64,000 nt of DNA from Pseudanabaena sp. PCC 6802 (GTDB lineage Bacteria; Cyanobacteriota; Cyanobacteriia; Pseudanabaenales; Pseudanabaenaceae), in the NCBI RefSeq assembly GCF_000332175.1, contig NZ_KB235914.1, positions 813,966 through 877,965 on the forward strand. The letters are read 5' to 3'. This document shows, one piece after another, positions 2,539-16,671 of this stretch. The notes under the pieces were generated by a model. It had not been told where the DNA came from, searched no databases, and saw only the letters and a program-made list of their open reading frames with translations. The translations under genes and the position numbers were made by a program. Each line of letters begins with the position of its first letter. Position 1 is the stretch's first letter.

Positions 2539-3690
2539 TCAGATTTGAAAGATAGTCAGAAGAGGTATTTGCCCTTCCAACTGACAATTCATCCCCGGAC
2601 GTTCGGGTTGGCTTACAAAACTCAACCCCAAAGCAGCAATATTCATCGCCGCGTTCACATCAGCATCATGTTCAAACCCACAATACCCACACTTGAATTT
2701 CTTGACACTGCGATAACTTTTTCCCTTGATGGGGTGAATGTGACCGCATCGGTTGCAAGTTTGAGACGTGTAGCCAGGTGGGACAAAAACAACAGACACA
2801 CCTGCAATAGCAGCTTTGTATTGCACAAAAATTCTGAGCTGATGAAACGCCCAATTGTTTGTACGTCTACGTTCCGTCTTATTGCGAGGTTTTTCGTTGA
2901 GACTTTGACGAATATTTGTCAAATCCTCAAAAACCAACGCTGCGCCAGATTGTTTTGCTACTTGAACTAATTCTTTGCTGATGTTGTGATTCAACCACTT
3001 TTGATAGCGTTGTTCTCTCCCAGAGAGCCTTCTCAACAATCTTCTAGAATTGCGAGTGCGTTTGGATTGAACTCCCGCTCTGACTCGACTAAATCGGTCG
3101 CGAACTGTTTGAATCTGCTCGCCACTCCAGCTTTTATTGGTACTGGTAGTTGCGATATCTCTGCGTCCGAGATCGACTCCAATCACTTTTGGGGTTTTCC
3201 CCGTAGGTGGCGTGTCAATCTCGACTACAAAGTTGATGTAGTAATCACCCTGTCTGGTTTTGTTCAGTGTTGCGCTTGTGATTTTCTGTCCTCGCAGCAA
3301 CGCAATTTGATAGCCACCTATTGCGAGTTTAAAACGATGGCGTTTCGTCAAAGTGATACCGACTTCTTGGGTTTCTTCCCAATAGCGAAAGGTTCGTTCG
3401 TTAAGGCTAATCGAAGTAGGACGGAATTTGTGAATCTGTTTTACGGCTTTCACGTTCCCGACAACACGACGAATTGCCATGCAAACATGGTTAGAACCCA
3501 AACCAGTAGACGCTCTGACTGTTTTGTAGGCCAGATGGTGCAATTTGGTTGTATTCCATTGTTTGAATCCCTGCCCAATTTTCAATATCTGATTACACGC
3601 ATCCGCGAATCCTTGAAGTGTTGCGTCAATTTCAGTCCGCAACTCTTTAGAGACTATAAGCCTGCATTTAACTGATAGTAACTGAGTCAT
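2539..3690 (-). CDS. tnpB: TnpB RNA-guided nuclease of an IS200/IS605-type element
   Basis: The product of 383 residues from the MTQLLSVKCRLI start (an in-frame ATG six codons upstream at 3708 is also possible) has the TnpB layout: a helical N-terminus, then a split RuvC domain. The acidic triad looks intact: D173 in GVDLGRRD, E255 in VFEDL and D344 in HDADVNAA. A C4 zinc finger (CNRCG, CGYCG) lies between the last two. TnpB proteins are guided by an omega-RNA transcribed from the element's 3' end and cut DNA at sites next to a short target motif. No tnpA is present here. The gene lies directly upstream of dnaK and ends 83 bp before it. Nothing suggests decay. Confidence 0.93.
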   Translation of the reverse strand: MTQLLSVKCRLIVSKELRTEIDATLQGFADACNQILKIGQGFKQWNTTKLHHLAYKTVRASTGLGSNHVCMAIRRVVGNVKAVKQIHKFRPTSISLNERTFRYWEETQEVGITLTKRHRFKLAIGGYQIALLRGQKITSATLNKTRQGDYYINFVVEIDTPPTGKTPKVIGVDLGRRDIATTSTNKSWSGEQIQTVRDRFSRVRAGVQSKRTRNSRRLLRRLSGREQRYQKWLNHNISKELVQVAKQSGAALVFEDLTNIRQSLNEKPRNKTERRRTNNWAFHQLRIFVQYKAAIAGVSVVFVPPGYTSQTCNRCGHIHPIKGKSYRSVKKFKCGYCGFEHDADVNAAMNIAALGLSFVSQPERPGMNCQLEGQIPLLTIFQI

Positions 3691-3728
3691 AGATACATAA
3701 TAGTGCATCCAGAAAAGAATATCAATAG

Positions 3729-3780
3729 GCGACTAAAGTCGCTCGCGTCGCTTTTCCACCCTGGACTAAAGTCACAGGGT
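3729..3780. repeat. Two hairpins sharing the GACTAAAGTC core upstream of tnpB
   Basis: GCGACTAAAGTCGC (3729-3742) is a near-perfect palindrome. ACCCTG (3758-3763) and CAGGGT (3775-3780) enclose a second GACTAAAGTC with one bulged base. They lie 40-90 bp before tnpB. IS200/IS605 elements carry subterminal hairpins recognised by TnpA, so these are candidates for the left end of the element. The exact element boundary cannot be fixed from one copy. Confidence 0.5.
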
Positions 3781-3906
3781 CGCCAAGCTCTCGGAGGTTT
3801 CTGATGCTGTCTAAGATTCTAGCTTTGGTTGGCTAGCTCGGTATAGCAGTCAACGGTCAGCTTTCAGCGATGGGCTGTTAAAAGGCCGATCGTGCCAGCG
3901 TTTGAT

Positions 3907-4352
3907 TAGACCTCTTGCACATTAGGCTTAGAGTGCTTGACTAGCAAGCGTTTCTAGCAGTAATGGTTGCCAACAGGTATGAAATCAGGAAACATCAGGA
4001 CAGCAAAATTAAACAACAAAAATGTCCTGACGATGAACTCTAAGATAGCGCAAAACCTCTCAACCGCAAAGTTCAAACGACGCTTTGGGGTGCAACACAG
4101 CACGTTTAAACAAATGCTGAAAGCCCTAAAACCATATTGGCAACCAGAGCTAAGCCAGGTGCTAGCCCGAAATTGCAGCTAGAAGAACGAATTTTGGTGG
4201 CCTTGGAGTATTGGCGAGAATATCGTAATTCTCTCTGGCCGTTATCGCAATCGCCGTCGTCGCTATGGCTTGCGCTGCAATTTAATTGCCGCTTTGTACA
4301 ACTATGAACTGTCTCTGGCTGCTTGATTTAAAATTAATGTGCAAGAGGTCTA
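3907..4352. mobile_element. Internally deleted IS5-like element with perfect terminal repeats
   Basis: The ends are 18-bp perfect inverted repeats, TAGACCTCTTGCACATTA (3907-3924) and its complement (4335-4352). The outermost TA may be a target duplication, as IS5-group elements often duplicate short TA-containing sites. Inside are the beginning and end of a DDE transposase gene; the catalytic middle is gone. At 446 bp it is too short to be autonomous, but with intact ends it could be moved by a full-length relative, in the manner of a MITE. Confidence 0.85.
3967..4325 (+). pseudogene. IS5-family transposase remnant (middle deleted)
   Basis: The first frame gives an N-terminal helix-turn-helix-type start (KFKRRFGVQHSTFKQMLKAL). 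A shift near 4140 moves to the frame reading KLQLEERILVALEYWREYRN, typical of IS5-group transposases. A junction near 4229-4236 then jumps to the C-terminal end, RYRNRRRRYGLRCNLIAALY, closing at TGA about 4325. The DDE catalytic region that should lie between is absent. It is therefore a double-damaged remnant and not an expressed enzyme. Confidence 0.8.
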
Positions 4353-4388
4353 TTTATTGAATACGATCGCCCTTCTCTATTTTCCTTC

Positions 4389-5129
4389 TCAACGATCGCC
4401 CATTGCAGATGCGGTGATATCGATGCCAATATCGCCAACAAACGAAAAAGTTCTCACAAAATCGAAAATCTGACGTATCTCCTTGAGTTTGATGTCGTAG
4501 GGCGCGATCAATTTTCCAACGTCATGCTGGAGTTTTTGGATATCTTGAGCGAGATATATGTCTGGATTGCGCTTTTCACGATCTAGATAGCGATTGAAGA
4601 CGTTACTGAGGGTTTCATTATCTTTTTCTGTTTGATGTCGGCTTTCTTCGTAGTAAGAGCCGATTTCTTGTAGGATGCCGCGCATGAGGTCGGGGTAGCG
4701 GCTGGAAAAAACGAGAAGGGATAGGATCGCTTGCTGTTCTTTTGGTGTGGGTCGATGTCCACGGGTGCGACTGAGGACTTTGTAGAGTTTATAGACGTTG
4801 GTGAGGCGTTTGAGGCTGCGGGGTGAGAGTTCGGCTTCTTGGCAGCAGGCGACGAGGCGGTTGAATTCTTGGGGGGAGAATTCGTTGAATTTAGTGCCGC
4901 TGGTTCCGCCGTCTTGGACGACGGTTTGGGCGCGGAGGTAGGTGCGGAGGGCATCTTCGGCGATCGGGCGGACGCGGTAGGGGATTTGGATGATTTTCTC
5001 GAGGTAGTCGGCGGCGGAGGGGCTACCTTGGAGGGAAAGAACGCCTTTGTAGTGTTGGGCTAAGGCGCGGTTGATGTAGCGCTCGTCGATGGCGAGGACG
5101 GCGATGAAGAGGGGGTTTTTGACCAGGAG
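4389..5129 (-). pseudogene. C-terminal remainder of the KAP NTPase after the in-frame stop
   Basis: This stretch continues the frame of the large KAP gene (5130-10898) without any further stop until 4389. It reads LLVKNPLFIAVLAIDERYIN just after the TAA, the expected continuation of the helix and strand after Walker B in KAP NTPases (a sensor-like VLAID strand). Further on are ELSPRSLKRLTNVYKLYKVL and a helical C-terminus. The first in-frame ATG is at 4685, so only a 98-residue piece could be re-initiated. With the TAA read as an amino acid the whole gene would have 2169 codons. Confidence 0.8.
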
Positions 5130-8100
5130 TTAGACGGCTTCGAGGACTTCGACGACGGTATTGGGGGGACAGCGATCGAGGTCGTCGATGTAGACGACAA
5201 CACGGGCTGGCCCTCTGGGAAATATCTGCTTCAGCTTGTCTAACTTTGTCTTAAACTCAGTGGCATTTGTTGGTGGTAAAAGACTGCTGCTCAACTTCCA
5301 GAGGTCGTCTTTGAACTGGTGCATTAACCCCAGGTGTTTGCTGTAGTCGCCGTCTTTCAGTCGAGAGTTGACAAAGTCAATTAGGGAGGAGTAATCGGCT
5401 GTCAATCCAACCTCTCGTCGCTGTTCTTCAACTAGGAGCTTAAGGGATGCTACTTCTTGGATGAGTCCCGCAACTTTATTCTGTTCCTGTTTAAGTAAGA
5501 CTTCACGCTTACTCTGAATCTCTGCTTGTTCTTTCTGAACTGAGGTGATGTAATTGGCCAGAGATTTGAGGATGGGGAGCAGAGCTGTGACGCTTGCAGT
5601 TATAGCAGCTAGAATCTGAATTGCCGATGGAACTTCTTTGGGGATTTCTTTAATCCACTGCGGTAAACTTTCAAACCAAATTAGAATATTTTGAATCAGT
5701 TGATTGAACCAATCTGCTATTCCAAACTTTCCTAGGAGTGCCTGAGTTGCTGGATCCAGCGTCAGTACTATCAACAGGGTCATTGTGAATAGAGCCAGTA
5801 GTCCTTGCCAACTCGTAATCGCCTGACGCAGCATCGTGTAAGTTTTACCTGCTTCCGTAAACTCTTTAATTTTTTCATCGGAAAAGTGTAGCTTGGCTAC
5901 GGCATTAATAATAGGCTTCCAGAATGCCGTAACAGATCGTTGAGCAAGTCGCTGATTTACATCTTCTTCAGCTTTTTTTCGCTGGCGCTGAAGCTCTTTT
6001 TCTTTTGTTTCTAAAATTTGCTCTTTTTGCTTAAAAATCTGCTTTTCTTCTCGTTTTACTCGATCGAGTAAATCCCAAAGAGAATTAGAGATTTCAGTCT
6101 TTGAAGCTGATTCTTTCCAGTCTTTGAATTGGCTGGGTTTCAGGTTGGACTGAAGGAAAGCAGTTCGCTCTTCTTCATCCATTAGGTAAAGTGCTTGCCA
6201 TAATTTGCCGCCCTCTCGCAAGGCTTTGCTAAAGGCTTTTGAGCTTATGTTAGAGCTAGAATCAGGAGATATTAAATCTTCAGTAGTTACTGGCTTATAA
6301 TCAGATTCCATGCTAATTGTATTCCAATATCTCTGTCTATCACTTAAGCGTTTTTGGAATCCAACAAACATTAGAAAAACAATTCTGTTTAAAATGTTTT
6401 CTATTACTGAATTATAGGGAGCATTACTTCCTGAGTGATTGAGAGAGTAATCTTGAAAGTAGTAATTTTTGATTTGACTCGAAAATAGTGCTTCAAATAG
6501 TAATTCCCCATCTTTTAATTTGCATAGAAAAGAAGCAAAAAGATTGAGGGAAAGACGTATTATTTTCCTGTTTTTTAATCTATATAAAAGAGAATCAAAA
6601 AGATTGAGAGCAGGGCGTATTATTTTATGATAAAAGTAATCGTTGTTTTTTTCAATCATCCAGAAAAGAACAATCCTCTTTGCCAAAATAATCAGTGCAA
6701 TGATAACCTTAATTAAAAATTCCAGGGAAAACAAAGCGAATACAATAATATGCAGAATAAACTGGACTATGACGAGATTCAAAAAATTTTGGAAAAAATC
6801 AGTAAATTTTTTATTGATTTTTTCGCAATACTTATAGAAATCTTGTCGGTTTTTCCGGATTTTTTTTCTTATAGTTAGAAGGGGGTTGTAGATAAATTGA
6901 TCGAGATAGCGATCAGATCGCTGTTTCGATGAAGCATTATCTGGCACTGTTTCCCGATCTGATGACCGATCGAAGTTGCTGAGGATATGTCCTAGTTTTT
7001 GTTCTAAACTGATTTGACGATTCAACTCATAGAATATTTCCTGCATGAGGCTTGCCCAGAGGTTAGCTTTGGCATAAGTCCAGGCATCAAATTTGATTTG
7101 GTAAATGTGACCGACAAATCGACCTACCCGATCGCCGTCAGGACTTTTACTGTCAGCATCTTTAAGCCCCCAGGCTTCGATCGCTTCCATACCTTGACTG
7201 CGGATCTCGACCATGTGGCTCTGCATCAGGTGCATGATGTAGGATTTGCCACCGCCCCACCCGCCCAGAATGCCGACAGCAACGGGAGGTTCAAGGTCTC
7301 GCATCAGGAGCATTTCGGTGAGAGCGTTGATTTCGTCTTTGAGGTTGAGCAGGTCTTCGTCTTGGGTGGCATCGTTGCGGAGGCTACCCGTTTTGAGGGC
7401 TTGGCGATATTCGTTTCGCAGGACAAAAAGAGAACGCTCCCAAAGGTCTTGAGGGGCTTTACCGATGCTGGCTTCGCGATCGATTTCTCGAACGAGGCGA
7501 ATGGGGAGATTAGGTTTGAGGGCGATCAGGATACGACGGCGTTTGTAGGTATTGGGATCGGGTTCTTTGGGGTCTTCTTTGAACTGATTTTGGTCTGCCC
7601 ATTCTTTAACGGCTTTGAGGAGAGTGGGAATTTGTTCGGGAACAATGGTGGCAAATTGGCTTAGGAGTTCAATGTATGGTACTAAATATTGTTCTAGATT
7701 AGGTTGAGGAATAATAAATGGATCATCCGGTTGAAAGAGTCGATATTCATCCATCTGATAGGGTGAATATATCTTAACTTTTTCAATCTGGCGTTGGACT
7801 TCTAAACGGATTTCGGGAAAGTAGATGGCGATGGCTAGGAGCGCCCGGACTTGATGGTAGCGATCTTGCAGTTCTAGGGCAATACTTTGGGCTTCGAGGA
7901 TATGTTGCGGGAGTAAATGCGGTGCAAGTTTAACTAAGGAGTTGGCTTTTTTAGCTTCATGAGTCTGTGACATTTCACGAATTAGCTGCAAAGCTCTAAA
8001 TTGGTCGGTCACAAGTTGGTCATTGTCTACAGGGCTTAATTCCTTGGGTTGGGGACGGGTAGCTAGAATTATGGCTATATCTGTTTTTTGGATTGAATTA

Positions 8101-10898
8101 GTTTGGTCTTTGAACTGTGCGATGATGCTGTCATGTACATGCAGTTCTGGATAGAGAGGGATGAAGGCACTGAGAGCAGTAGCTTTGGGACGGGGACGAT
8201 CCTGACAGAGGGCTTTAGCCTGTTGGTAAAAAGGGGACAATTGCTCCGGGGTAAGGTGGGGTGAGGTGGCAAGGGCAGCGAGAACTTGGGACAGGTAAAA
8301 TTCTGACTTCAGTTTTGGTAGTAGATTATCTTTGATGAACTTGAGGCGATCGTCACTGTCTAGGCTAGGAACTAGGACAGTGAGTACGTTAGTTATAGTT
8401 CTTTCAGCAGAAAGGTGCTGGTCAGTTTGATCGAGAATATGATCGATAAGTTCATCTTTCAGATTGGAGTCACTTGGTTCAGTCTCTATAAATGTAGGAA
8501 TACTGACTCGAATTGCCACCTGATGAAGTATTTGGGCGAGAAGTTCAGGGTAGGGGCAGCGTATTTCGGCAATTTCTAACGCTTTTTTGAGCTGCTCCGG
8601 AGATAGGTAGGGAATAAGATTACAAAGAGCTGTTGCGGGGTAGGAGTAGCCAGGAAGGTAGTTCTGAACTATATCGAGTGCTTCTGATAATCTTTCTGCG
8701 GGGAGATAAGGGGCTAGGTTACCAAGGACTTCCGCTTGGTAAGCAGGATGGGTGATTTTAGTTTGAATCAGTTGCAATACTCTGGGAAATAGTCCTGCCG
8801 AAAGACGGGGGGCTAAGGCACTCAGCAGTTTGGCTCTATCGGCAGAGCTTTCGCCCCTAGGAACAATTTCCAGGACTGAGGAGAGTAGTGTTGGAGGGCA
8901 ACAGAGAATCAGGAACTCGGTGGATTGAAAGGCGATTGTAGTCAATACATTAATCCGATTTTCTACACTTTTCAACTCTAAAGCAATCTGTATTATTTTT
9001 TGTTGTATTTGAGTTGAGAAATTGCAGCTTTTGTCACATACTACTTTTAATATTTTTACCTTTCTGGACTCATTATTAATGAACAACATAGAATTCAGGA
9101 ATTCTTGCAATAATTGAGTTTCGAAAATAGGAATTTTAGCACCAATTTCTTCAAGAATTTCACTTCGATCATTTTCATCTTGAATACTGGAAGTAATCCT
9201 TAGAGCTTGCTTTAAAATCTGAGTTTCAGAACAGGGGATTTCGGCGATGGCACTTTGCAAGAGATATACCGGGTTATCCATCGATGAAGAGGCTCTTAAC
9301 TTTATTTCCTTGTACACAAAAAATGCCAACTCTAATCCCTGTTGAAATACGAATTGGGATTGAGGAGAAGGTAGTTGAGCAGCAACTGATACCAGAGCAA
9401 AGGTCTTGTAAATTGGATTCTTAATAGTTGAAGCCAGCTTTAGTGCTTGTTTGAGTACTCGTTGACGTTTGGATGGAGGAAGTTTGGCGGCAATTGCACC
9501 TAGCGCAATGGCTTTATGGTGATTAAAATCATAAGGCGCGGCTGCTTTCAGAGCTTTTTTTAGCAATTTAGGTTTGGTGGGAGGGATGTAGCTGACAACT
9601 AAAGCTAGTAATCTTAATCTATCGGAGAATCTATCGGAGGAAGACTCAATAGATAAAACGACTTCAAGAGCTTTTTCTAGTAGTTCTTCAGACTCTAGCA
9701 GAGAAATTTTTTTCGTAATTGCCGCTATTATTTCTACTTGATTATTTTTGTATGACTTTCTGTGATTGACTATGTATTTTTTGGCGGCATTTAGCGCTCT
9801 TATTAACCATTCAGTCTTAGGCGAAAGGTGGGCAAGGATGACTGCTATAAAAAGAGAATCATCACACCGAATCAACAAGTCTTCAAATATTTCTAGTTCG
9901 AGTTCAAAGGGTGGAATTACTGACAGAAAATCCTTAAAATACAAGCCTTCACCATAAGGATTTTGAGAAGGATATATTTCTATGATTTCTATTATCTGCT
10001 TTAGAATATCTCCGCATTGCGAGGGATGATATTTTTGGGCAATATATGACAAAAATTCCAATTTTCTTCTCGTATCAGAAGAGCAAGCACTTAACTCTTT
10101 ATCAATTACTTTCTGTCGTAGGTTAGATTTGGAGGAATGAATATTGTCTAGGAGAATTCTGGAAAACCAACTGTTAGTAAACTCCCATGAGATCATTTTT
10201 TGAAACAGGGAGTCACGTCCCGAGTAAGGTAATTTGGCAGCCACCGCAGCAAATACTTCACTGCGCATTTCCTCATACGGAATAACTTGCGTGGACTCTA
10301 GTACTTGTTGGAGCAGTTGGGGTTCCGAAGCAGAAAACTGGGCTATTACCTTAGTAAGTGCTGTACTTCGACTCCCCTCCAAAATGATTTGCGCTGTATC
10401 CAGTGCTTGTTGGAGTATAGGTTTGCGTTCCTCTGAGGGAAATTGGGCAGCCACAGCAGTCAATGCTAGACTTCGGCAATACTCATGCTGAAGCATTTGC
10501 GCAGTATTCAATGCTTGTTGGAGTAGTTGAGGTTCTGAAGCGGTCAGTCGAGCAACCACGGCGAAGAACGCTCTTGGTCTGTCCAATTGGGCTTCTGCGG
10601 CGTCCATTTCTTGCTGAATCCTAACCCTATCCTCATCACTAAGCGGTGACAGTTCTACCCTCACCTCTTCTTGAACAGATTTTTCCCCCTCACTACTAAC
10701 CTCTTCCTTCGACCAGAACTCCTCTGGTAGCCCCTGCCCTGGCAACTCCGCCAGCACCTCCCGCACTACCCACTCACTACCCGTCAGGTTTAGCCCCTTA
10801 ATCTTCTCCAGCCATGCGATCAAATCTTGCACCCAAATGGGCTGATCTTCTGAATTTGCTGTCACCGTCTCTCTATCTGCCACAAACAACCTCACCAC
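5130..10898 (-). CDS. Giant HEAT-like-repeat/KAP P-loop NTPase, truncated by an in-frame TAA
   Basis: The product has 1922 residues from a GTG start (10898; no ATG occurs until about residue 95). Residues ~100-1150 are repeated helical pairs such as LLQQALNTAQ...ALTAVAAQFP, resembling HEAT-type solenoids. The KAP domain follows: Walker A GGWGGGKS at ~1211-1219, hydrophobic segments near ~1385-1435, coiled coil (EKELQRQRKKAEED), more membrane segments near ~1690-1790, and Walker B VVVYIDDLDR at ~1901-1912. Membrane helices between Walker A and B are a KAP family hallmark, so it should be an inner-membrane ATPase. Translation stops at TAA 5130-5132, ten codons past Walker B, while homologous sequence continues in the same frame. 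KAP proteins include PifA, which excludes phage T7, so a defence role is possible but unproven. VapBC lies divergently 146 bp away. Confidence 0.85.
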   Translation of the reverse strand: MVRLFVADRETVTANSEDQPIWVQDLIAWLEKIKGLNLTGSEWVVREVLAELPGQGLPEEFWSKEEVSSEGEKSVQEEVRVELSPLSDEDRVRIQQEMDAAEAQLDRPRAFFAVVARLTASEPQLLQQALNTAQMLQHEYCRSLALTAVAAQFPSEERKPILQQALDTAQIILEGSRSTALTKVIAQFSASEPQLLQQVLESTQVIPYEEMRSEVFAAVAAKLPYSGRDSLFQKMISWEFTNSWFSRILLDNIHSSKSNLRQKVIDKELSACSSDTRRKLEFLSYIAQKYHPSQCGDILKQIIEIIEIYPSQNPYGEGLYFKDFLSVIPPFELELEIFEDLLIRCDDSLFIAVILAHLSPKTEWLIRALNAAKKYIVNHRKSYKNNQVEIIAAITKKISLLESEELLEKALEVVLSIESSSDRFSDRLRLLALVVSYIPPTKPKLLKKALKAAAPYDFNHHKAIALGAIAAKLPPSKRQRVLKQALKLASTIKNPIYKTFALVSVAAQLPSPQSQFVFQQGLELAFFVYKEIKLRASSSMDNPVYLLQSAIAEIPCSETQILKQALRITSSIQDENDRSEILEEIGAKIPIFETQLLQEFLNSMLFINNESRKVKILKVVCDKSCNFSTQIQQKIIQIALELKSVENRINVLTTIAFQSTEFLILCCPPTLLSSVLEIVPRGESSADRAKLLSALAPRLSAGLFPRVLQLIQTKITHPAYQAEVLGNLAPYLPAERLSEALDIVQNYLPGYSYPATALCNLIPYLSPEQLKKALEIAEIRCPYPELLAQILHQVAIRVSIPTFIETEPSDSNLKDELIDHILDQTDQHLSAERTITNVLTVLVPSLDSDDRLKFIKDNLLPKLKSEFYLSQVLAALATSPHLTPEQLSPFYQQAKALCQDRPRPKATALSAFIPLYPELHVHDSIIAQFKDQTNSIQKTDIAIILATRPQPKELSPVDNDQLVTDQFRALQLIREMSQTHEAKKANSLVKLAPHLLPQHILEAQSIALELQDRYHQVRALLAIAIYFPEIRLEVQRQIEKVKIYSPYQMDEYRLFQPDDPFIIPQPNLEQYLVPYIELLSQFATIVPEQIPTLLKAVKEWADQNQFKEDPKEPDPNTYKRRRILIALKPNLPIRLVREIDREASIGKAPQDLWERSLFVLRNEYRQALKTGSLRNDATQDEDLLNLKDEINALTEMLLMRDLEPPVAVGILGGWGGGKSYIMHLMQSHMVEIRSQGMEAIEAWGLKDADSKSPDGDRVGRFVGHIYQIKFDAWTYAKANLWASLMQEIFYELNRQISLEQKLGHILSNFDRSSDRETVPDNASSKQRSDRYLDQFIYNPLLTIRKKIRKNRQDFYKYCEKINKKFTDFFQNFLNLVIVQFILHIIVFALFSLEFLIKVIIALIILAKRIVLFWMIEKNNDYFYHKIIRPALNLFDSLLYRLKNRKIIRLSLNLFASFLCKLKDGELLFEALFSSQIKNYYFQDYSLNHSGSNAPYNSVIENILNRIVFLMFVGFQKRLSDRQRYWNTISMESDYKPVTTEDLISPDSSSNISSKAFSKALREGGKLWQALYLMDEEERTAFLQSNLKPSQFKDWKESASKTEISNSLWDLLDRVKREEKQIFKQKEQILETKEKELQRQRKKAEEDVNQRLAQRSVTAFWKPIINAVAKLHFSDEKIKEFTEAGKTYTMLRQAITSWQGLLALFTMTLLIVLTLDPATQALLGKFGIADWFNQLIQNILIWFESLPQWIKEIPKEVPSAIQILAAITASVTALLPILKSLANYITSVQKEQAEIQSKREVLLKQEQNKVAGLIQEVASLKLLVEEQRREVGLTADYSSLIDFVNSRLKDGDYSKHLGLMHQFKDDLWKLSSSLLPPTNATEFKTKLDKLKQIFPRGPARVVVYIDDLDRCPPNTVVEVLEAV

Positions 10899-11044: not shown

Positions 11045-11278
11045 ATGGCAAATTTAATCGTCCGAAACATCGATGAAACCATTGTCAAAGCGCTCAAAAA
11101 GCGGGCAAGTCAGCATGGGGTCAGCGCCGAAGCCGAACACCGCAAAATTTTAGAACAGGCACTGCTGCAACCGCAAAGAAAATCGTTTGCAGAGGTGCTC
11201 AGCCAAATCCCCAACGTTGGCAATGACTTAGACTACGAGCGGGTACAGGATGACACAGCCAGCCAAGTATTTGATTGA
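11045..11278 (+). CDS. vapB: VapB/FitA-like antitoxin
   Basis: The 77-residue protein has a ribbon-helix-helix style N-terminus (MANLIVRNIDETIVKALKKR) and the AEAEHRKILEQAL segment typical of FitA-like antitoxins. The C-terminus should thread into the partner toxin's active site. A good ribosome site (GGAGG) lies 8-9 nt before the ATG. The gene overlaps vapC by 29 nt, which couples translation and supports a toxin-antitoxin module. Autoregulation through the upstream inverted repeat is likely. Confidence 0.9.
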   Translation: MANLIVRNIDETIVKALKKRASQHGVSAEAEHRKILEQALLQPQRKSFAEVLSQIPNVGNDLDYERVQDDTASQVFD

Positions 11279-11696
11279 TACCAACGTCATTAGCGAACTC
11301 CGAAAAAAAAGCAATGCGAACCTCGGTGTTCTGCAATTTTTCCAGCAAGCCGCCGAGCAAGCTGCACCTCTCTATCTCAGTGTCATAACCATTGGCGAAC
11401 TGCGGCGAGGGGTTGAACTCATCCGACATCGCGGCGATCGCAGCCAAGCAGACCTGCTAGAAAACTGGTTGCAGACCGTTTTAGAAGACTACGCCGACCA
11501 TATTCTAGATTTCACTGCCCTGGATGCCCAGGTTTGGGGCAAATTGCGCGTTCCCCATCCTCAAAATGCCTTAGATAAACAGATCGCCGCCACTGCACTC
11601 ACCTGCGGCTTAACCCTGGTCACCCGGAATGCGAGCGACTTTGCAGGGACAGGAGTTCTCCTGCTAGACCCTTTTGAAACCATTGAGAGTTTCTGA
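11250..11696 (+). CDS. vapC: PIN-domain ribonuclease toxin, VapC/FitB-like
   Basis: The 148-residue PIN domain carries the expected metal-binding acids: D10 in LIDTNVISEL, E50 in TIGELRRG and D109 in ALDKQIAATA, with the usual polar residue in TRNASD (N127/D130). VapC toxins cleave specific structured RNAs, commonly tRNA or rRNA, when freed from VapB. The ORF starts inside the antitoxin gene and is full-length, so the pair looks functional. Confidence 0.93.
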   Translation: MTQPAKYLIDTNVISELRKKSNANLGVLQFFQQAAEQAAPLYLSVITIGELRRGVELIRHRGDRSQADLLENWLQTVLEDYADHILDFTALDAQVWGKLRVPHPQNALDKQIAATALTCGLTLVTRNASDFAGTGVLLLDPFETIESF

Positions 11697-11791: not shown

Positions 11792-12424
11792 TTAGGCGGG
11801 TGCAGATTTCAGCTCGATGCTCCAGCTGCGCAATTTGCCAACATCAATTCTGGCGCGATCCGCAACATTCAAAGTCCAAATACCCATCATGGGTTGTCCC
11901 ACCATACCGCCAAGAACACCCGACACCGCTGAATCGTAAGTCGCGACTAGATTGTCAGTGGAGCCACCAAGTTGTGGATGAAGAACAGTGCTCCGACCCG
12001 CAGGCGAAGTCAGTGTGACCCGCAGGTCGCCGATGTAGGTATGCTGAATATCGACATTCACCTTGATCTGGGCCACCGTGCCGGATTGCGCGATGACGAT
12101 TGTGCTCGAAATGCCTGCTGTCGTATTATCGGGAATGGAAGCCATCGGGTTGGCCTGACCGGAAGCGACCAGAGCGGCTGGCGCGGAACCTATCTTGAAC
12201 GCCATAGTGTCACCCGGTGCTGCAATATCGGATATCACAAGCCCCGAATCGCGGCCATCCCATTCCCTCGAATTGGGCGAAGACGCAGCAGATAGGGCAA
12301 CGCCCTGGATTGTGGCGTAAAGGTCGTCACCGTCACCACGGTTCGCGTCCAGTTCCAGATCGCGGCGGCCGTCCGCTTGGAGCAAAGCGCATTGGTAGTG
12401 TTTTGCGGAGGTGCCCTGCTGCAA
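11792..12424 (-). pseudogene. C-terminal half of the M6 metalloprotease (P-domain), out of frame
   Basis: This 210-residue frame continues the protease gene at 12537-13751. It begins in the C-terminal part of the catalytic region (QQGTSAKHYQCALLQADGRR) and ends with a P/Homo B-like domain (DIQHTYIGDLRVTLTSPAG, GIWTLNVADRARIDVGKL), which assists folding or export in secreted proteases. The reading frame upstream of 12424 reaches LPASGLAVYHCDILGSNEL, which should follow MGLDRGL in the N-terminal piece. Removing 97 bp at 12475-12578 joins the two into one 620-residue ORF. It has no start of its own and is probably not made. Confidence 0.85.
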
Positions 12425-12474: not shown

Positions 12475-12578
12475 GTAGTCCGAGAGTGTTCAGATTTTTG
12501 TGTAAATTGAGTCCTGAAGTACGTATTTACGCTGTTTCAGAGGCTCGATACACAAAATTCCGATCGCACCCGTAGTCC
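12475..12578. mobile_element. Short MITE-like insertion in the M6 protease gene
   Basis: GTAGTCC occurs at 12475-12481 and again at 12572-12578 and looks like a 7-bp target duplication. The 90 bp between have imperfect terminal inverted repeats, about 17 of 23 positions matching, including a perfect TTTTGTGTA (12496-12504) / TACACAAAA (12549-12557). Excision of 97 bp restores the protease frame exactly. No coding capacity. I found no second copy in this window. Confidence 0.75.
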
Positions 12579-13751
12579 ACGGTCAAGCCCCATCCTGGAA
12601 CGATTTTCAACCAAGAAGTATTCGTTCGGCTTAGACGTGCGGTATTTCAACACTGTGTTGTAGTCGCCCTGACGTGCCTGGTGGTTGGCAGCCGTTTTCA
12701 AATCAATTTCATTGTCGCACCATCCAGCAAGATCGCGCAGATAGGCGCAGACCGGCGAGGGGCTAAGTCCGTTGTCGTTGTGGTTCCCAGATCCCATGAG
12801 GCAATAGCTGCCGATGCCGGCGCTCTTGACACTGTCACCATCACGTTCGCCGTAGTCGTACATGTCTGGGAAACGGCAAAGGAGATGGCCATTCTCGTGG
12901 CAGAATGTGCCGATGCTGAGATCGGCAGGCGTGCGTCCGAGGCTTGTCAGGAGATAGAGATCGGTTCTCATAGTGCCAAAGCGCAGATCGATATGCCAGT
13001 TGTGCGGCCACAACTCGCCACGATACTGTGTTTGGCCGGCATACATGATGTTGAGGGCATCGATGATATTCTCATTGCGCGAATCGAATTGCTTGAGATT
13101 GAGACCGTCTGCGACGGCGAGTCGAAGCGCCTCTTCGACCAGCAAATTGTTGACATAGAATTCGCGGTTCCTACTGAGAGTGTACGGGCCAGCAACGAAA
13201 TTCGTGTATTTGAGTTTTCCGCTCGATACGCGATCGAAATATTCACGAGCCGAACAAATGTTGCCGTTGCGGTTGTAGTTCGCGCCGTTAAGCATCTCTT
13301 CTACGTCGGGGCGCGTAACGGTACTTGCGAGGTCTTGGAAATTCACCAGGATCGTTAAACCCTTGACCGTACCAATCGAGAGAACGCGACCCTCAAGCAG
13401 TCCCTGGTTTGGGCCTACGGTTCGCACTACTTCCGCCTCGCGTTGGCCTCCGGCCATCGCGGCGCGGCGCAACTTGCGAGCCCCGGCCCGTGCAACGATT
13501 GTTTCCTGCGATTCCTGTAGATGGCGCACCAATCCTTCGGGAACAGGTTCTGAAAGCGGTGTACCGGTCGAGCGGAAACTTCCGGCTGAGAGGCGGGCGT
13601 AGCAGAAAACGCCAAGCTCGTCGTCATAAATGGCCGAATACCCGTTCATATCCTCGTATCGTGCGTAATGCTCGTCGCCGAACACTTTGAGGGATATCTC
13701 TGGACCTTTCGACTGGCCGAATCTCAGGATTTCACCAAATATCGCGCTCAT
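12537..13751 (-). CDS. M6-family metalloprotease, N-terminal and catalytic part (gene disrupted)
   Basis: The 404-residue product has an N-terminal propeptide-like module (residues 1-80, EHYARYEDMNGYSAIYDDEL) and an M6/immune-inhibitor-A-type zinc protease domain. The zinc site is HENGH at residues 285-289, with the downstream FPDMYDYG and the SYCLMGSG turn typical of the family. The frame ends prematurely at 12537 inside an insertion, after LDRGLRVRSEF. The intact protein would have 620 residues and a C-terminal P-domain. No clear signal peptide is visible. The block 11.8-14.1 kb is visibly G+C-rich and I see no GCGATCGC in it, which suggests transfer from elsewhere. Confidence 0.85.
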   Translation of the reverse strand: MSAIFGEILRFGQSKGPEISLKVFGDEHYARYEDMNGYSAIYDDELGVFCYARLSAGSFRSTGTPLSEPVPEGLVRHLQESQETIVARAGARKLRRAAMAGGQREAEVVRTVGPNQGLLEGRVLSIGTVKGLTILVNFQDLASTVTRPDVEEMLNGANYNRNGNICSAREYFDRVSSGKLKYTNFVAGPYTLSRNREFYVNNLLVEEALRLAVADGLNLKQFDSRNENIIDALNIMYAGQTQYRGELWPHNWHIDLRFGTMRTDLYLLTSLGRTPADLSIGTFCHENGHLLCRFPDMYDYGERDGDSVKSAGIGSYCLMGSGNHNDNGLSPSPVCAYLRDLAGWCDNEIDLKTAANHQARQGDYNTVLKYRTSKPNEYFLVENRSRMGLDRGLRVRSEFCVSSL

Positions 13752-13767
13752 TTCATTACTCCTTATT

Positions 13768-14100
13768 TTATTTTGGCGTCGCCCCTGAACGCTGATCCAT
13801 TTGCTGCGTTCGTTCCTCGATTTTTCGTATTCTGACCTCGTCGGATTCAGTCGCGTGCCGCTCCACGCCAGGCGGTGGGGGCGATGTTACGGAAATGCCT
13901 GTTGTTTCAAATCTGCCTCCGACAACCCGGGCGTAGCAGAACAAACCCAGCGAGTCGTCGTAGATGGCTGGAAATCCCTCTGGCGTTTCATACGTTGCGT
14001 AAAATTCGGTGCCTCTGACGATCAGGTCGACATCTGAACCGTTAGCCTGTCCTAGAGAAGCCTTTTCGCCGAACACACCTACCATGCGACGGTCATTCAT
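13768..14100 (-). CDS. Stand-alone homologue of the M6 protease propeptide-like domain
   Basis: The 110-residue protein is clearly related to the first ~95 residues of the protease encoded just downstream. Matching segments are GEKASLGQANGSDVDLIVRG with GEILRFGQSKGPEISLKVFG, and FPAIYDDSLGLFCYARVVGG with YSAIYDDELGVFCYARLSAG. It ends in a charged helix (EVRIRKIEERTQQMDQR). It ends 16 bp before the protease start, in the same orientation, so the two were probably co-transcribed. It has no catalytic domain. A chaperone or inhibitor of the protease is an attractive inference; a truncated paralogue is the plain alternative. Confidence 0.7.
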   Translation of the reverse strand: MNDRRMVGVFGEKASLGQANGSDVDLIVRGTEFYATYETPEGFPAIYDDSLGLFCYARVVGGRFETTGISVTSPPPPGVERHATESDEVRIRKIEERTQQMDQRSGATPK

Positions 14101-14780: not shown

Positions 14781-15884
14781 ATGGACATGATGCAATCTAA
14801 GCTGGACATCAAGCTATTGGGATGTTTTGCCCTGACCTATGGAGATACCCCCATAGCGGAACTTTCCAGTGGGCGATCGCAAGCCTTATTGGCATATCTG
14901 GTCTTGCATCGCCAAACTGCCCAACCCCGCCAGCGCATCGCTTTTTCCCTGTGGCCGGAATCAACAGACGAGCAAGCCAGGGCGAATCTCCGCAAGGAGT
15001 TAAGTCGGTTGCGCCATGCTTTGCCAAACCCAGACGAATTCCTGCACGTAGATGCAAAAATGCTGCAATGGTTGCCCCATGGTAACTTTACGCTGGATGT
15101 GGCGGGGTTTGAAGCAACTGTGCGGGCGGCAGAGCAAGCCCCCGATCGCAATACCGCCCGCGATCGCTTAGAACAGGCGATCGCGCTATACCAGGGAGAC
15201 GTATTACCCGATCTCACAGATGAGTGGGTATTACCAGAGCGCGCGCGCTTGCAGCAAATGTACATGCAGGCACTAGAGCGACTGGTAAACCTGACGGAAG
15301 CACAACGCGACTACCGGGTGGCACTAACCCATGCCCAACAGATGTTACGAGTCGATCCGCTCAATGAAGCCGCCTATGTCAACTTAATGCGATTGTATGA
15401 GTTGCAGGGCGATCGCGCCAAAGCTTTGCAGGTCTACCATCAGTGCATGACCGTGTTGCGCGAAGAGCTGGGAGTCGATCCCAGCGTTGCCACGCGCAAG
15501 CTGTACGAACAGATCCTGATAGAAGAAGATGCACCCAAGCAGGTGGGCGTGACATCCCGCAGCAGCTTGTCCGTCCCTTCACCTTTACTGCCTTCGCGAT
15601 CGCTAGCATTATCCCCATTAATAGGACGCGAGTCAGAGTGGGCGTATATGCAGGAGTGGGCAGGCGCGATCCTGTCTGGGAAGAGCGGTGCGAATAGTGG
15701 CAGTACGTTTGCGGGTGCAGTATCCCAAGTACTATTGCTATTGGGAGAACCGGGAATTGGCAAAACGCGCTTGCTAGAGGAATTGCAAATACTAGCGCAG
15801 CAAGAGAGCGCTCTAGTAGTTTGGGGGCAAAGCTTTGCGGCGGAGATAATGCGCCCCTATGGCATCTGGATTGATGCATTTTAA
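14781..15884 (+). pseudogene. BTAD (SARP-like) transcriptional regulator, N-terminal part
   Basis: The 367 residues have a winged-helix OmpR-like DNA-binding domain (~10-105: SGRSQALLAYLVLHRQTAQP, LWPESTDEQARANLRKELSR), the bacterial transcriptional activation domain (~110-255) and the first part of an AAA/STAND ATPase with Walker A GEPGIGKT near 325. The frame then reads RPYGIWIDAF and stops, where homologues continue through several hundred more residues. The C-terminal TPR part follows in another frame (15859-16671). The gene therefore has a central deletion of the ATPase. The N-terminal piece alone could still bind DNA, but activity is doubtful. Confidence 0.8.
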
Positions 15885-16671
15885 CAGCCCGGTTACGTCA
15901 GCACAGATGCTGTCATACAGCGGCTCGCGTTTGGCGGAAATCGGGCGAGACATGGCACGGGCAGAAGCTTTGTTCCTGGAGGCACAGGCACAGGCAACGA
16001 GAGTAGGGTTGGAGCTTTGCGATATTTACAGCGGGTTGGGAATCGTACACCGTCACTACGGTCGCTATTCCGAAGCGCGATCGCTACTCCAGCAATCATT
16101 GCGACTAGTACGAGCAGAGCAAGACCATTGGCGCGAGTGTACGTACCTCAGCTATCTGGCGATGACGGAATTGGAAGGCGGCGATCCATTGGCAGCTTTG
16201 CCTTACTGCGATCGGATCTTGCTAGTTGCCGATAAAATCAAAGGTGAAGGGAGCGAGGCAGCGATTGCCAATGCACTGGCGGCGTTAGTTCGCTATCGGT
16301 TGCAGTATCCCAATGCGGCGGCGGAGTTAGCGCAGGCGATCGCCACTTTGCAACAAGTCGATGCCAAGCGCATTCTAGCTTATGCTCTGATTGGAGCAGC
16401 GGCAGTCGATCTGCAATGCGATCGCTTGGAATTGGCGGTACGTCGAGCTGAATCTGCCTTGGAGAACGCGCAAATCATCAATCATCCTGGTGAGATTGCC
16501 CTCGCATGGGCAATTCTGGTACAGGGATTGTTAGGATTAGGAGAAATAGAACGAGCGAAAGTACAATTTGCAGCAGGTTATCCAACTCTCGATCGCCAAA
16601 ATTTGAGCTTGCTTGCCCAAACCGCAGTCGATCGAGTACTAAACCAAATTCAAGATAGCAATACAGGATGA
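15859..16671 (+). pseudogene. TPR C-terminal part of the deleted BTAD regulator
   Basis: The 270-residue frame overlaps the previous one by 26 nt and encodes tetratricopeptide-like repeats (RAEALFLEAQAQATRVGLEL, GLGIVHRHYGRYSEARSLLQ, GEIALAWAILVQGLLGLGEI). These are typical of the C-terminal third of BTAD-ATPase-TPR regulators. The first ~15 residues derive from the other frame at the deletion junction near 15870-15890. It could be translated by termination-reinitiation at the overlap, but as a regulator it lacks both DNA-binding and ATPase parts. Best treated as the second half of a broken gene. Confidence 0.75.

Follow-up and report, generated by a model that had tools for sequence, protein, structure and literature searches.

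A free-standing prodomain-like protein encoded beside M6 metalloprotease genes in Pseudanabaena sp. PCC 6802 and six other bacteria, a candidate inhibitor in trans

Introduction

Free propeptides are known for subtilisins, and free propeptide-like inhibitors have been described for cathepsins. The cathepsin inhibitor crammer, like the protein reported here, is a separate propeptide-like protein, but it serves animal cysteine proteases; CTLA-2 is another such inhibitor. For M6 metalloproteases, a search of the open-access literature found no report of a free propeptide, and no separately encoded prodomain is known to us for the InhA/PrtV-type enzymes, the latency of which Arolas in 2016 reportedly attributed to the N terminus of the pro-peptide at the zinc.

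Stand-alone propeptide-like inhibitors are established for subtilases, and SUB1-ProM is described as the product of a separate gene that lies beside subtilase genes and as an inhibitor of SUB1 (PMC6993865). The stand-alone inhibitors of MEROPS family I9 (Pleurotus peptidase A inhibitor 1, yeast peptidase B inhibitor, Arabidopsis subtilisin propeptide-like inhibitor 1; also Plasmodium SUB1-ProM) are small propeptide-like proteins with their own genes, and they target S8 serine proteases. A two-gene arrangement of another kind occurs in Aeromonas sobria, where ORF2 is an external chaperone and temporary inhibitor serving ASP, a propeptide-deficient protease (PMC5638518). Among M6 enzymes, purified PrtV is described as beginning at precursor residue 106, so that an N-terminal part has been removed (PMC2613228).

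The gene described here lies in a 64,000-nucleotide stretch of the Pseudanabaena sp. PCC 6802 genome (the window) and encodes a protein, called the orphan below, that is homologous to the N-terminal domain of the M6 protease encoded next to it. The orphan shares with the I9 inhibitors its small size, its own gene, and its propeptide-like character, and with SUB1-ProM a position adjoining a protease gene (PMC6993865). It differs in that its partner is a metalloprotease, in that it is directly homologous to the neighboring protease's own domain, and in its predicted order of six strands followed by one helix, compared with the I9 topology given in that source. Pfam I9 was matched neither by the orphan (E ≤ 1) nor among 36 relatives, and by sequence and predicted strand order the orphan is not an I9 member. 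Like ASP-ORF2, the orphan-M6 pair consists of two genes, and the M6 model and profile both match ASP through their P-domain part, but ORF2 is encoded downstream of a serine protease without a propeptide, whereas the orphan is encoded upstream of an M6 protease with its own N-terminal domain; judged from these sequences, the pair does not have the propeptide-deficient partner that defines ASP-ORF2. The InhA/PrtV-type proteases are M6 enzymes like the partner, and the InhA2 zymogen was the best structural match of a modeled relative of it. Those enzymes are secreted, whereas the pair family has no clear signal peptide and carries P-domains.

Results

The orphan gene and its M6 partner

The orphan open reading frame has an ATG start and a stop codon within its bounds (Table 1). 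An earlier note on this DNA had described its product as a homolog of the protease N terminus encoded 16 bp from the protease gene, and both statements were confirmed. By BLASTP, orphan residues 6 to 97 pair without gaps with residues 1 to 92 of the M6 ORF at 41 of 92 identities (45%; E = 9e-26), a similarity far above chance. The homologous unit opens at orphan residue 6 (MVGVFGEK), a position that holds the first methionine of the frame in five of six other orphans and a GTG codon in the sixth (L008, described below). Across the 5.6-Mb genome (6 contigs), the orphan and the M6 ORF were the only copies of the domain at E ≤ 1. The earlier note knew of no named family for the domain, and in the database searches the orphan matched no Pfam family (0 at E ≤ 1) and none in NCBIfam; among the 36 domain relatives, weak hits to four families in Pfam and one in NCBIfam came from a single member apiece, with best E values of 0.1 and 0.0088.

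Assignment of the partner ORF to the M6 peptidases is based on an M6 domain above curated cutoffs (TIGR03296, 163.2 bits against 110.8; Pfam M6, 23.5 against 22) and on an HExxH motif. Residues H285, E286, and H289 were invariant in 32 aligned rows, comprising Pseudanabaena and 31 of 35 M6 loci found in other genomes (L009, a near copy of L010, and the partial L037, L038, and L040 were excluded).

Table 1. Coordinates of the orphan-M6 locus within the window
Feature	Position	Strand	Remark
Orphan: free-standing prodomain-like M6 N-terminal protein, 110 aa	13768..14100	-	Homologous unit starts at residue 6
Intergenic gap, 16 bp, with Shine-Dalgarno-like AAGGAG ahead of the M6 ATG	13752..13767	-	Sequence
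M6 metalloprotease ORF, 404 aa	12537..13751	-	Residues 1-92 orphan-like; TIGR03296 at 133-393; early frame end
Zinc-binding HENGH motif in the M6 ORF (residues 285-289)	12885..12899	-	Sequence
MITE-like repeat insert of ~91 bp in the M6 gene, with 7-bp target-site repeat	12482..12572	.	Bounds approximate
Severed M6 3' part in a different frame, with the P-domain at ~11813-12073	11792..12424	-	PF01483, 69.2 bits

Interruption of the protease gene in Pseudanabaena

Compared with the proteases of loci L006 and L007 (see below), homology runs to residue 393 of the Pseudanabaena M6 ORF, stops for 91 bases without a match, and picks up again in a different frame, and the severed 3' part is 78 to 79% identical to the C-terminal parts of those two proteins. 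The unmatched bases correspond to a repeat, the bounds of which are approximate because the two homology matches around the insert overlap by two residues. The repeat has 32 matches in its own genome, 15 of them long (68 to 116 aligned bases) and 17 of 24 to 29 bases at one end, with its own place counted in the total and among the long matches. Direct repeats of 7 to 8 bp, differing from site to site, flank it in the four copies listed out of eight. We take the element to be MITE-like, place-specific flanking direct repeats being presumably what such elements leave.

Relatives with intact frames are 615 to 767 aa long counted from the domain methionine, and each of six M6 relatives scanned has one or two P-domain stretches. 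Because the ~91-bp repeat interrupts the gene, the P-domain is severed from the Pseudanabaena M6 ORF. The Pseudanabaena pair is thus probably damaged or decaying or yields a truncated protease, and because the protease is broken there, the Pseudanabaena orphan is probably either a remnant or a protein that acts on a truncated enzyme.

Recurrence of the pair in other bacteria

A scan of genome contigs with the M6 ORF as query returned 35 loci. With a profile built from the two Pseudanabaena copies, a free-standing domain ORF was found just upstream of the M6 gene at five of them, in Candidatus Accumulibacter contiguus (L006), Mesorhizobium albiziae DSM 21822 (L007), a Hyphomicrobiales MAG (L008), a Pyrinomonadaceae MAG (L011), and a Phycisphaerales MAG (L016). 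A seventh pair, in the distant cyanobacterium G095 (locus L003), came from a survey of 386 genomes of the cyanobacterial phylum, where only Pseudanabaena, G095, and G262 matched, the last with a fused copy only. The region upstream was fully testable at 29 of the 35 loci, since the sequences of L032, L035, L037, L038, and L040 start no earlier than the M6 match itself and that of L025 extends only 339 bp upstream. No orphan was present at 24 of these 29, and the orphan is therefore dispensable within the M6 family.

At E ≤ 0.001 the domain was detected in 31 of the 35 genomes behind the M6 loci, and each of the five pair genomes found through the M6 scan had just two matches, the orphan and its partner. 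A second, distant copy, within a frame of 768 aa, occurs in one further genome (G409). Surveys of the surrounding taxa found the domain in 5 of 246 genomes from the phylum of the Phycisphaerales MAG, 3 of 297 from the order of Mesorhizobium, 3 of 199 from the phylum of the Pyrinomonadaceae MAG, 3 of 300 from the order of Accumulibacter, and 1 of 38 from the family of Pseudanabaena, this one being Pseudanabaena itself; such counts include the seed genomes, are not frequencies, and come from single-sequence or seven-row queries that miss distant copies. No free-standing domain away from an M6 gene turned up in these surveys: all short copies adjoined an M6 gene, and all other matches were in frames of at least 449 aa. 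Plasmids held no relative of the orphan, and the L006 M6 protein as query matched 16 plasmid records, none with 80% coverage. Viral contigs gave no match to the orphan as query and one to the domain profile (L105; IMGVR_UViG_2608642274_000002), in which a 495-aa M6 frame at 2968 to 4452 opens with the domain and has no separate orphan within 6.2 kb.

Gene order and strand were identical in all seven pairs, with the orphan gene first, and the distance from orphan stop to M6 start was 4 bp in L006, 4 in L007, −4 in L008, 80 in L011, 46 in L016, and 71 in G095, compared with 16 in Pseudanabaena. These short gaps and the constant order and strand suggest that the orphan and M6 genes are cotranscribed. 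All seven free-standing copies terminate no more than about 20 residues from a shared domain boundary, and the M6 partner retains its own copy of the domain in every pair. Stand-alone copies beside M6 genes, which the earlier note had proposed to look for, thus exist in six other genomes. The possibility it had raised against itself, that the orphan is the truncated start of a second protease, is rejected on the recurrence of about the same boundaries in those genomes, each copy preceding an M6 protease with its own domain.

One role for such a protein would be mainly as a chaperone-like helper for folding of the partner, as ORF2 is for ASP of Aeromonas sobria. ASP-ORF2 is a two-gene precedent that combines external chaperone and temporary inhibitor (PMC5638518), and a free domain that is encoded first could be ready as the protease is made. 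ASP, however, has no propeptide, whereas the orphan's partner keeps its own N-terminal domain in seven of seven pairs and M6 genes occur without an orphan at 24 of 29 fully testable loci. Both observations argue against a strictly required chaperone, and we judge a primary role in folding to be unlikely.

Position and predicted fold of the domain

In nine remote relatives (L004, L071 to L074, L078, L082, L083, and L087), the domain directly precedes an M6-like region in every case, as judged by eye; HExxH is present in all except L074. A hydrophobic signal-like stretch lies ahead of the domain in six of them (L071, L072, L073, L074, L082, and L083; also by eye), and in the other three the domain starts near the likely N terminus. 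The domain sits in the prodomain position, and the free-standing product is homologous to what this position marks as a protease prodomain. The description "propeptide-like" in the earlier note therefore stands as far as position before the M6-like region and, in six proteins, after a signal-like stretch is concerned. The superposition of a relative's whole M6 model on the InhA2 zymogen, which begins at model residue 2 (see below), also fits it, but no solved structure matches the orphan model by itself. The orphan model had no PDB or BFVD match at E ≤ 0.001, the InhA2 zymogen included, which is no proof of a new fold, and its best VIA match was flagellin (Z = 2.8).

Within the pair family, inspection of upstream stretches and their hydrophobicity revealed no clear signal peptide. 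Fewer than 15 residues lie upstream of the domain methionine in 16 of 41 ORFs (orphans and M6), in L032 only because the contig starts there. Orphan upstream stretches long enough for scoring were not hydrophobic, and a few M6 frames had mildly hydrophobic ones (12-residue means of 1.89 in L039, 1.75 in L017, and 1.37 in L011); a signal from an earlier start is possible in these three.

An AlphaFold2 model of the orphan (pLDDT 88.8) has six strands and a C-terminal helix, and the model of the L006 M6 protein (pLDDT 81.4; pTM 0.70) has the same elements followed by the catalytic domain. Behind the cis domain of the latter, a linker at residues 98 to 114 has pLDDT values below 50. Because the orphan ends about where this flexible linker begins, it is predicted to be a complete domain without the activation segment. 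Against the InhA2 zymogen, the L006 M6 model gave a Foldseek E value of 1.1e-14 (TM 0.33 by query length) and, in VIA-align with 4yu5, a Z score of 25.4 over 383 residues (rmsd 3.7; range 2 to 493). If the low-confidence stretches are dropped, residues 98 to 493 supply about 356 residues compared with the 383 superposed, and some of the N-terminal domain must then lie within the modeled superposition; equivalence of the domain to the InhA pro-peptide is plausible from these models. In searches of PDB sequences, the single M6 ORF and the domain profile each gave one chance match, and the M6 profile matched only the P-domain of ASP. A cysteine switch was considered as a general mechanism and rejected, since the cysteine is not conserved: 2 of the 7 orphans lack it, as do 3 of the 34 cis domains.

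Retention of the domain, the cleavage of which is hypothetical, by the proteases would also suit a structural or targeting subunit, one that docks or oligomerizes with the protease's own N-terminal domain as a homo- or heterodimer and leaves the active site unblocked. The confident model of the isolated domain (pLDDT as above) predicts that it is well ordered alone, as such a subunit would be. However, its place after a signal-like stretch in six remote relatives suits a prodomain better. Moreover, the ORFs flanking 38 loci (L003 to L040) held, beyond M6 and frame shadows, no family in more than four loci among the first 25 clusters listed, small overlapping-frame clusters being read as shadows. 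A subunit of this kind has, in our estimate, little probability.

Selection and origin of the orphan

All seven orphans are open frames, with mutual identities of 35 to 78%. For the orphan, dN/dS was 0.15 between Pseudanabaena and L006, 0.09 between Pseudanabaena and L007, and 0.16 between L006 and L007, rough values since dS exceeded 1. Of the 21 orphan pairs in all, 9 were saturated and 12 gave values, from 0.09 up to 0.60, with the upper end of this range coming from distant copies. Close orphans thus change mainly at silent sites. The catalytic domain of the partner was more constrained than the orphan (0.05 and 0.05 for Pseudanabaena with L006 and L007). Within the set of four close pairs, orphans resembled each other less than the cis domains did in five of six comparisons (72% versus 87% for Pseudanabaena and L006), the exception being Pseudanabaena and L007 (78% versus 74%). 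Identities of orphans and of catalytic domains were correlated across the seven pairs (r = 0.86; 2 of 5,040 permutations as high, the identity permutation included), which can be explained by shared ancestry alone.

A tree of 41 domains was calculated after omission, from tree and domain alignment, of a chance ORF (L039, 4135 to 4485; E = 0.29) and of same-place duplicates; L035, L037, L038, and L040 do not contain the whole domain. The orphans of Pseudanabaena, L006, L007, and L008 formed one clade (99/95), separate from a clade of the cis domains of their four partners (99/96). The L016 orphan joined the four orphans weakly (91/56), the G095 orphan grouped with the domain of its own partner (81/78), and the L011 orphan grouped with the cis domain of L018 (94/90). 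A single clade of all seven orphans was not rejected (p-AU = 0.304), and the starred branches require two label changes or more, so one old event or several would be compatible with the tree. The closest pairs are proteobacterial and the other 37 genomes of its family have no match, which points to horizontal acquisition of the pair by Pseudanabaena.

The grouping of the G095 orphan with its own partner and the label changes are also what a duplication relic would leave, that is, a functionless short copy that arose by tandem duplication of the 5' end and hitchhikes with the protease. The interrupted protease of Pseudanabaena and the high or saturated dN/dS of distant orphans fit such an origin. 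Open frames in seven of seven cases at such low mutual identities, the excess of silent changes among the close orphans, and their well-supported clade apart from the partners' domains speak against it, and we give a relic only a small chance.

Neighboring genes

Downstream of the Pseudanabaena pair is a KAP NTPase ORF (5130 to 10898, minus strand; 1,922 aa), with a FitA-like/PIN gene pair between, and the G095 pair is followed, after about 160 bp, by the gene for a 1,006-aa caspase-like/KAP protein (L099, 3806 to 6826). The two KAP proteins are 39% identical over 280 alignment columns. KAP genes number three in Pseudanabaena and one in G095; for the five other pair genomes, the search at E ≤ 1e-5 was negative in four and placed a KAP gene on another contig in the fifth. 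Linkage to KAP in two cyanobacteria is suggestive only. Pfam scans of neighbors (the first 25 of 42 families, the first 25 of 96, and ten proteins) showed, among the matches listed, that genes of KAP, caspase-like, TIR, and trypsin-like type occur next to individual pairs and that 2 of 70 neighbors of orphan-free M6 genes carry TIR; these genes were too scattered to be informative.

Several other features of the window were recorded. Homology of the KAP ORF to the G095 protein continues past the stop codon to about position 4425, and the gene looks interrupted. The pair between the M6 and KAP genes comprises a FitA-like antitoxin and a PIN-domain toxin (11045 to 11696, plus strand). A BTAD-type activator gene at 14781 to 16671 is apparently split into overlapping ORFs (14781 to 15884, with a Pfam BTAD match, and 15859 to 16671, assigned by eye), and a TnpB-like gene (OrfB_IS605/Cas12f1-like TNB) lies at 2539 to 3708.

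The arrangement of the pairs calls to mind a toxin-antidote module, in which a cytoplasmic killer protease and the prodomain gene as its antidote would have moved between phyla. Antidote-first order, the 4-bp overlap in one pair, patchy spread that includes absence from the 37 other genomes of Pseudanabaena's family, and the lack of a clear signal peptide are in keeping with this, as are the KAP NTPase genes downstream in both cyanobacteria and the caspase-like domain in one. However, 30 of the 35 M6 loci have no adjoining orphan (6 of these were not or only partly testable), so the antidote is not obligate, KAP lies beside only two of seven pairs, and PADLOC scans of three proteins yielded nothing at E ≤ 0.01; we consider such a module extremely improbable. 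A mobile module in which a cytoplasmic M6 protease has the free prodomain as its antidote and the cyanobacterial KAP/caspase-type NTPase would sense an invader and free the protease to kill or reprogram the cell has a very slim chance.

Discussion

The explanation we favor, with about an even chance of being right, is that the orphan is a trans-acting prodomain that inhibits its partner M6 protease and perhaps also aids its folding. Homology to the protease's own domain, adjacency, recurrence in distant bacteria, the excess of silent changes, and the prodomain-like position speak for it, and SUB1-ProM offers a precedent by analogy. Against it, the partner keeps its own domain, so that a second copy is not obviously needed, and the orphan is less constrained than the partner's catalytic domain.

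In such a two-gene unit, the upstream gene would supply the free prodomain and the downstream gene an M6 protease that keeps its own, with one mRNA giving both proteins at the same time in the cytoplasm. Latency of the newly made protease would be maintained by its cis prodomain until cleavage of the flexible linker that follows this domain. Protease that was activated early or misplaced could then be recapped by the free prodomain, which would act as a dedicated intracellular inhibitor and may also help the partner fold. We infer the steps of cotranscription, binding, inhibition, cytoplasmic location, and activation by linker cleavage.

Were a free prodomain conserved as a partner of M6 metalloproteases, the regulatory design known from subtilases and cathepsins would reach a further protease class. 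The pair would offer a ready test of M6 prodomain inhibition in trans, and the orphan would provide a natural, sequence-specific inhibitor scaffold for the M6 family. The arrangement also prompts one to ask for what reason M6 proteases that lack a clear signal peptide should have to be switched off.
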